DNA of 39,211 nucleotides from Abyssibacter sp. (GTDB lineage: Bacteria; Pseudomonadota; Gammaproteobacteria; Nevskiales; OUC007): the NCBI GenBank assembly GCA_023146115.1, contig JAGLCS010000128.1, positions 1-39,211 of the forward strand. Reading direction: 5' to 3'. Under the pieces are notes generated by a model. The model saw only the letters and a list, made by a program, of their open reading frames with translations, searched no databases and was not told the DNA's origin. Made by a program: the position numbers and the translations under genes. Below are positions 16,994 through 35,419 of the stretch, piece after piece (within the stretch, counting starts at the first letter, position 1; every line of letters begins with the position of its first letter).

Positions 16994-17013
16994 ACGACGC
17001 CGTGCAGCCCGAG

Positions 17014-17276
17014 GGAAACACTGATCTATTCACACCACCAAGACGGAGTCGGTTTTCCCGCAAGCCCAGGCGGAGCGAGCGCGGTTTGGTCATTCCAAAT
17101 GAGCGACGACCACGCAGGCTTGCGGGAAAACCGGCCCGTTCCATCCGGATTGCGCCTGAAAACGGGCCACGCGGCGTTGCTCGTCGCTTGTTTGGCATGA
17201 CCAAACTTCACTTCTCGCGCCTTGCCTGGCCTGTTTTCAGGCGGCAACTTGGCGGCGTGGATAGATCAGTGTTTCC
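17014..17276 (+). mobile_element. MITE-like element, copy B (full-length, about 263 bp)
   Basis: Terminal GGGAAACACTGATCTAT (17013-17029) / ATAGATCAGTGTTTCCC (17261-17277) perfect 17 bp, extending to 27/30 bp; right flank CTAG, left flank CGAG; three further internal inverted repeats. Confidence 0.85.
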
Positions 17277-17280
17277 CTAG

Positions 17281-33557: not shown

Positions 33558-35333
33558 ATGAAATCACGGGTCGCAGGGAGCTTGATGTTGAGCATGGCCG
33601 TCGCGGTCGGACTGGCGGCCTGTGCCGGCGGGGGGGATCGCCAGACGCTAGCGGACCAAGAGCCGGTGCAAGAGCCGGCCACCACTTCGTCGGATCGGGC
33701 GAGCAATGCGACAGTGGCGCAGCCTCCGGCCGACGCTGGGGCCGCGATGGCGCAGGCGGCCAGCCCGAAACAGGCGATGCGATCCGCCCTGTTCGCTCGG
33801 GAGAACATGGCGAGCATGATGCTGCCGCCGCGCATGCCGCCGGCCGCGCCATTCAACCGGGAAGGCTACGAGGCCATCACCGAGAACCGCTTTCACGACC
33901 CGCAGGTCACGCCGTTGTCGACCTTCGGCCTGGATGTGGACACGGCGTCCTATACCAACCTGCGACGCCTGCTCAACGCCGGGCAGACGCCCCCGATCGA
34001 TGCCGTGCGCATTGAGGAACTGGTGAACTACTTCGACTACAGCGAGTTGCCGGTCAGCGGGCGGCACCCGATTCGCCTACGCACGGAGCTGACGGAGGCC
34101 CCCTGGGCTGATGGGCATTTGCTGGCCATGGTGCAGGTGGCCGCACACGCGCCGAAACCGGCGCAGGCACTTCCGAATCGTCTGGTCTTTCTGATCGATA
34201 CCTCCGGCTCCATGCAGGCGCCGGACAAGCTGCCCATGCTGCAGCGCGCTTTCCGTCAGCTCACCGAACAGTTGGGCCCGGAGGATTCGGTTGCGATCGT
34301 GACCTATGCCGGCAACGCCGGCGTCGCATTGCCGGCCACGAGAGGGGATCAGAAGTCCAAGCTCTATGAGGCCATTGGCCGCATGCAGGCAGGAGGCTCG
34401 ACGGCTGGCGCACGCGGCATCGAGCTGGCCTACCAGATCGCGCAGCAACAGTTCGATGCCGAGGCCAACAACCGAGTGATTCTGGCCACAGACGGTGACT
34501 TCAACGTGGGCGCCTCCAGCCAGGGCGAGCTGGTGCGGTTGATCGAACAGCGACGCGACCAGGGCATCTACCTGACCGTGCTGGGTTTCGGCACCGGCAA
34601 CTATCAGGACGGCCGCATGCATCGCCTGGCCGATCATGGTGACGGCAACTACTACTACATCGACACGGATCTGGAGGCGCGGCGGGTGTTGGTCGACAAG
34701 CTCCAGGGCACGCTGGTGACCGTCGCCAAGGACGTCAAGCTGCAGGTGGAGTTCAATCCACAGCGTGTCGCCCAGTACCGGCTGCTCGGCTACGAGACGC
34801 GGGCGCTCGCCGCCGAGGACTTCAAGGACGACCGCAAGGACGCCGGTGACGTCGGCGCCGGCCAGCGGGTGACGGCCTTGTACGAGATCGTGCCGGTGGG
34901 CGCGCAGACCGGCGCCCCTGACGCACTGCGCTACCAGACCCGTAAGCCGACCCCCGCGAGCCAGCGCAAGGACGAATGGATGCTGGTCAAGGCGCGCTAC
35001 AAGCAGCCGGATGGCGGGGCCAGCACCGAGTTGCGTAACGTCGTGGAGGCGGATGTCACCGCACTTGCCCAAGCATCGGCGGATCTGCAATGGGCCGCTG
35101 CAGTCGCTGAGTTCGGTCTGGTGATGCGCAAGTCCGAACACGCCGCCGACGCCAGCTTTGCCGATGTGCTGCGCCGGTCGGAGCGCCTTGCGCAGCGCAT
35201 CGATGACCCTGCCCGGGACGAGTTTGTCGGGCTGGTTCGCCAGGCCAACCTGCTGGCCAAAGCGCCGGAACCGCTCCGCATGGGCCGGGACTATCAGCCG
35301 GCACATCAGACCACCGCGCGGGTTCAGGAATAA
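33558..35333 (+). CDS. von Willebrand factor type A domain lipoprotein (YfbK-like)
   Basis: Lipobox GLAAC; VWA N-terminal domain PLSTFGLDVDTASYTNLRRLL; MIDAS DTSGSM; C-terminal YRLLGYETRALAAEDFKDDRKDAGDVGAGQRVTALYEIVPVG. Confidence 0.9.
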   Translation: MKSRVAGSLMLSMAVAVGLAACAGGGDRQTLADQEPVQEPATTSSDRASNATVAQPPADAGAAMAQAASPKQAMRSALFARENMASMMLPPRMPPAAPFNREGYEAITENRFHDPQVTPLSTFGLDVDTASYTNLRRLLNAGQTPPIDAVRIEELVNYFDYSELPVSGRHPIRLRTELTEAPWADGHLLAMVQVAAHAPKPAQALPNRLVFLIDTSGSMQAPDKLPMLQRAFRQLTEQLGPEDSVAIVTYAGNAGVALPATRGDQKSKLYEAIGRMQAGGSTAGARGIELAYQIAQQQFDAEANNRVILATDGDFNVGASSQGELVRLIEQRRDQGIYLTVLGFGTGNYQDGRMHRLADHGDGNYYYIDTDLEARRVLVDKLQGTLVTVAKDVKLQVEFNPQRVAQYRLLGYETRALAAEDFKDDRKDAGDVGAGQRVTALYEIVPVGAQTGAPDALRYQTRKPTPASQRKDEWMLVKARYKQPDGGASTELRNVVEADVTALAQASADLQWAAAVAEFGLVMRKSEHAADASFADVLRRSERLAQRIDDPARDEFVGLVRQANLLAKAPEPLRMGRDYQPAHQTTARVQE

Positions 35334-35409
35334 CCAAACCGCACTCCTCGCGCCTTGCCTGGCCTGTTTTGAGGCAGCAACTTGGTGGTGTGACCAGATC
35401 AGTGTTCCC
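35332..35409 (+). mobile_element. MITE-like element, copy C (5'-truncated)
   Basis: 82 nt (35332-35413) align without gaps to 17199-17280 of copy B, about 70 identical by eye; right TIR AGATCAGTGTTCCC then CTAG; left half absent. Confidence 0.75.
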
Positions 35410-35419
35410 CTAGTTCTCC

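Follow-up and report, generated by a model that had tools for sequence, protein, structure and literature searches.

The element that lies between trkA and trkH in the Abyssibacter sp. window (the whole 39,211-nucleotide stretch of DNA analysed) is a MITE by every feature tested: it is multicopy, non-coding, bounded by terminal inverted repeats (TIRs), flanked by YTAR-like sites and missing from the orthologous site in three relatives. We consider it likely that this MITE is mobilised by IS5-family transposases, that its body is a DNA-structured module found across the class and not an IS remnant, and that its ends were changed in the genus to those of another IS5 subgroup. The main new point is that one conserved body carries the ends and target footprints of two IS5-family subgroups.

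The first-pass annotation had assigned positions 17013-17280 to the element. An element is present there, but its boundaries are refined to 17014-17276 (263 bp, GGAAAC...GTTTCC, plus strand in the orientation of alignment A1), between the trkA stop and the trkH ATG (17281), and the G at 17013 and the C at 17277 are reassigned to the flanks. The 30-bp ends were found where they had been reported, with 17 bp perfect, 27/30 positions complementary and three mismatches, all transitions. The left TIR (17014-17043, plus strand), with an IS5-type outer 13 bp, GGAAACACTGATC, forms the terminal stem with the right TIR (17247-17276, plus strand). Three structures lie between them on the plus strand, each with approximate limits: arm A (17044-17137), a long hairpin with a nested TTTGGTCATTCCAAA hairpin; a central mini-hairpin (17138-17147), which reads CCC..GGG in most relatives; and arm B (17152-17242), a long hairpin that is an inverted relative of arm A. 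Arm B was matched at 17137-17247 with 119 bits by R1, a covariance model of the centre and arm B, which also matched the arm A region, on the minus strand, at 17043-17152. The predicted fold of the MITE as single-stranded DNA has an energy of -90.4 kcal/mol compared to -46.1 kcal/mol for shuffles (z = -11.5). Being shorter than 500 bp and ending in TIRs, the element has the size and ends of a MITE, and its interior contains no ORF of ≥100 aa, in agreement with the earlier view that it encodes no protein. Its flanks also read as previously given, with CGAG on the left (17010-17013), a degenerate YTAR target or target-site duplication, and CTAG on the right (17277-17280), directly before the trkH ATG; neither flank is assigned a strand. 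This duplication is imperfect and counts against the explanation that we favour.

BLAST of the MITE against its own genome (3.39 Mb, 192 contigs) gave 69 matches. TIR-like ends numbered 45 at ≤2 mismatches and 55 at ≤3, compared to 0 for a reversed-pattern control, which is more than chance would give; the true copy number is uncertain because the assembly breaks in many copies at contig ends. Contigs that start or end inside the MITE include C90, C43, C120, C3, C189 and C148 of this genome (G000). Many copies are also carried by two congeners. Within the window, a related copy had been noted at 640-766, and this was confirmed as an internally deleted copy (plus strand) with a perfect CTAA/CTAA duplication, lying in the gap that separates a RelA/SpoT-like ORF from the ORF after it. 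A second, noted at 35332-35409, exists as a partial copy at 35327-35410 (plus strand) that consists of the right TIR and part of arm B and matches bases 182-268 at 85%. The CTAA duplication of the 640-766 copy (636-640) includes the TAA stop codon (637-639) of the RelA/SpoT-like ORF before it; a YTAR target can overlap a stop codon, and this insertion therefore keeps the ORF intact.

An empty orthologous site, which the first-pass annotation had proposed looking for in relatives, was found in three genomes: the trkA-trkH interval lacks the MITE in the congeners G001 and G002 and in the confamilial G003. In its place, G002 has a short spacer, G001 a spacer of unrelated sequence and G003 a different repeat. 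Since the MITE is absent at this position in all three, the window insertion is most simply read as lineage-specific. The repeat that fills the G003 gap (L141) is also palindromic, CGTCATTGCGAGGAAGCGAAGCG...

The ends of the MITE in the genus Abyssibacter read GGAARCACTGAT(C/T)(T/G)ATTC. In the search for a parent IS, 85 genomes of the same order were queried with the IS5-family transposase of the congener G002 (NF033581, 342 bits). This search found a 1232-bp IS in G028 and G461, whose transposase matches the NF033581 'IS5 family transposase' with 316 bits. Its ends, GGAAACACTGATCAAGTC/G, match the window TIR at 15-16 of 18 positions, with the outer 13 bp identical at both ends, and its target duplications are TTAA/TTAA, CTAA/CTAA and TTAG/TTAG. 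The IS therefore resembles the MITE in the outer 13 bp of both ends and in its YTAR duplication, but differs in encoding a transposase, in having an interior unrelated to the MITE body and in not being found in the own genome. Thus, an autonomous element sharing the ends occurs within the order and not in the own genome, where no parent IS was found. Against the favoured explanation, no IS with the full 18-bp genus TIR was found, the best match (16/18) coming from another family of the order, and G028, the genome with that match, had no MITE match; the genus yielded no IS-size TIR pair with a transposase. Collectively, the shared outer 13 bp and the YTAR sites support the original guess of a non-autonomous IS5-like element, and an IS with the same TIR, which had been suggested as a check, was found for the outer 13 bp in the order, yet not as a resident source. 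Comparison of the MITE interior with seven IS loci revealed no clear similarity beyond the ends. We therefore propose that the MITE is mobilised like IS5 and do not claim descent from IS5; the alignments give no sign that the body is a deletion product of the 1232-bp IS. Other candidates were rejected. The only PF01609 locus of the own genome (C186) has ends that do not match. In G001, a 2.5-kb TIR pair (C5:104987-107453) was set aside because its ends are degenerate and its interior, by inspection, does not look like that of an IS. IS701 also makes 4-bp target duplications (PMC2266710), but the IS with matching ends belong to the IS5 family.

In most other lineages, the MITE body carries a different TIR, GGCCTGTTAACACTA, here called canonical. 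Further ends on the body outside the genus include GGCCTGTTAACAC, GGTCTGTTGAC, GGCCTGTTGCCG, GGACCTGTCATGG, GAGCCTACCCGC and more, and the MITEs with these other ends are mostly still ~263 bp long and lie beside YTAR-like sites. G003 has both the canonical and the genus end types, and ends like those of the window copy also occur in a Salinisphaerales MAG. The genome G186 contains 263-bp MITEs with GGCCTGTTAACACTA ends and also five copies of an 805-806-bp IS with 17-bp ends, GGCGTGTTAACACTAAT. This IS has two overlapping frames (135 and 132 aa) matching the two halves of the NF033580 'IS5 family transposase', each of which scores just under the full-length cut-off. Its ends are nearly those of the canonical MITE, with a YTAG/CTAR footprint common to both, but the window copy has ends of another type, and the interior of this IS is unrelated to the MITE body. 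Since the canonical and the genus ends each match an IS5-family subgroup, a single body bears the ends and footprints of two subgroups. Two loci in G045 were rejected as sources: an 822-bp IS next to a MITE has other ends, GTGTCGTCACGAGAT, and a 1.15-kb TIR pair (L242) appears to be a mini-MITE into which another IS has inserted. Elsewhere in G045 (L182, C1 about 3322000), an IS5-family IS with the TIR GGATGCTCTGCACAACC and a TTAA target is inserted into a canonical MITE end. Two further IS-size TIR pairs were seen at other loci (L250 and L255).

YTAR is the target motif of IS5 (PMC10359306), and the MITE copies are found at such sites, against a background of 0.14% of window positions. The boundaries used for full-length copies rewarded YTAR, and flank counts taken from them therefore lean to YTAR; the counts given here use boundaries set by TIR patterns alone. 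Among 47 genus-type copies, an exact YTAR was present on the left in 31, on the right in 23 and on both sides in 12, and 11 of these 12 had identical 4-mers (CTAG 7, TTAA 3, CTAA 1). Among 56 canonical copies, the corresponding numbers were 39, 43 and 32. The 32 canonical pairs were CTAG/CTAG (18), TTAG/CTAG (6), CTAG/CTAA (4) and TTAG/CTAA (4); they read YTAG/CTAR, 14 are non-identical, and TTAA/TTAA never occurred. The canonical flanks are consistent with a duplicated TA (2 bp), in which case the element begins at G; the G186 IS likewise fits a TA duplication. The genus-type flanks fit a 4-bp YTAR duplication, which is unambiguous only in the 640-766 copy (CTAA/CTAA) because most genus sites are TTAA or CTAG and so palindromic.

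We searched 387 genomes drawn evenly from the Gammaproteobacteria with R1, whose E-values are rough. Matches were found in 95 of them (about a quarter), including Azotobacter chroococcum, Azomonas macrocytogenes, Pseudomonas schmalbachii, Nevskia, Candidatus Thiodiazotropha, Woeseiaceae and Cellvibrionaceae. When eight distant copies, among them those of Azotobacter chroococcum, Pseudomonas schmalbachii and Thiodiazotropha, were aligned directly with the body of the window copy, identities were 69-78% and scores 130-171, compared to at most 35 for shuffles. Plasmids yielded three weak partial matches only, in Halomonas and Azotobacter, and the phages searched had no MITE match. With lengths from 35 to 450 bp allowed, 48 of the 56 canonical copies were 262-266 bp long. 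The genus-type copies had a mode at 264 bp and further classes at 43-127 bp, 336 bp and 408-415 bp.

RNAalifold on 38 full-length copies recovered the terminal stem, arm A, the central mini-hairpin and arm B, and 77 of the 88 pairs were changed on both sides. In this alignment, 92.3% of cells were paired, and the covariation score was 0.551 compared to 0.180 for shuffles and 0.07-0.09 for slid partners; the cells are not independent events because the copies are related. Across the class, 149 arms had 94.7% of their cells paired and 1012 cells changed on both sides, although this alignment leans to structure because it was fitted to the model. The inner loops are conserved.

Such extreme covariation, together with the conserved inner loops, would also fit a structured RNA, regulatory or catalytic, that was spread by transposition and whose fold is selected in the transcript. 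Selection at the RNA level should favour G-U over A-C mismatches. The TIR stem (G-U 2.8%, A-C 3.1%) and arm B (2.5% and 2.7%; class-wide 1.55% and 1.97%) show no such excess, so the fold is probably kept as DNA and not as RNA. Arm A does show one, with 5.7% G-U compared to 1.4% A-C in the order set and, with strand allowed for, 3.9% compared to 2.7% class-wide; the order-wide total of 123 G-U to 76 A-C is due to this arm. No Rfam family was matched at the gathering score, and the ends and YTAR flanks mark the element as a transposon whatever other role it has. We therefore regard an RNA selected for its fold as unlikely. The substitution patterns suggest that the fold is probably maintained mostly at the DNA level, and the excess in arm A leaves room for an RNA role.

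MITEs are usually seen as remnants of one local IS. Under that view, the trkA-trkH MITE would be an internal deletion derivative of a local IS5 element with a meaningless leftover as its interior, and the IS5-type ends and target, as well as the internally deleted 43-129-bp forms, fit it. However, apart from the ends, no clear similarity links the interior to the IS examined, the interior is homologous across the class, the dominant 263-264-bp size is kept, and 77/88 pairs covary, all of which make such an origin very unlikely. A host palindromic repeat, REP/BIME-like or other, outside the IS5-type transposable elements, would likewise be highly palindromic, intergenic and multicopy. REP/BIME sequences are short RAYT-associated palindromes with GTAG/CGTC-type tags, and their anatomy differs from that of the trkA-trkH MITE, which is a unit of defined length (263 bp) bounded by TIRs, has target footprints, is missing from the orthologous site in relatives and shares its ends with IS. 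We give this identity almost no credence.

On the IS5-mobilised explanation, an IS5-family transposase acting in trans would recognise the TIRs, excise or copy the MITE and insert it at YTAR. The body would be a structured DNA module of ~263 bp, in which a TIR stem encloses two homologous arms in inverted orientation and a central mini-hairpin, and it is spread through the Gammaproteobacteria, usually with GGCCTGTTAACACTA ends resembling those of the two-frame IS5-family IS. The genus ends, GGAARCACTGAT, would have arisen by replacement, as against base-by-base change from GGCCTGTTAACA. Since they match a different IS5-family subgroup, the MITE probably changed its transposase; we infer the direction of this exchange from the wide distribution of the canonical type. 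Self-complementarity of the arms would most likely be preserved in the DNA, through template-switch correction of quasi-palindromes, through selection for a foldback that places the two ends side by side, or through both, and the data fit the two alike. A bolder extension, to which we give slightly less than even credence, is that the MITE is a class-wide transposable structure, a Watson-Crick foldback independent of any one IS, that swaps ends between the IS5-family subgroups available to it.

As far as the accessible text of PMC10969869 describes them, Correia, ERIC, Chunjie, QMITE and MITEAba12 resemble the trkA-trkH MITE in being short, non-coding, TIR-bounded, multicopy and stem-loop forming, and in their presumed movement in trans. 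In the same account, each of them belongs to certain genera or families, whereas the body described here spans many gammaproteobacterial families with ends that differ by lineage. A limited search of the open-access literature (MITE terms and the text of the canonical TIR) found no earlier description of this body, and its novelty is meant in that sense. A body with the ends of at least two IS5-family subgroups makes transposase switching by bacterial MITEs testable, and its conservation does the same for constraint on a MITE interior. The covariation pattern offers a good case for distinguishing structure kept in DNA from structure kept in RNA, and many intergenic repeats that lack a label could be annotated with the covariance model.

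In some copies (L111, L114, L116 and L121 in G001; L014 in G000), arm A, arm B or both carry multi-hairpin inserts of ~72 bp, at positions that correspond between the arms. They give the 336- and 408-bp classes, and the two inserts resemble diverged relatives with re-paired stems. In G425, a pattern search found about 190 TIR ends and size classes of 225, 263 and 290 bp and others, indicating strong amplification.
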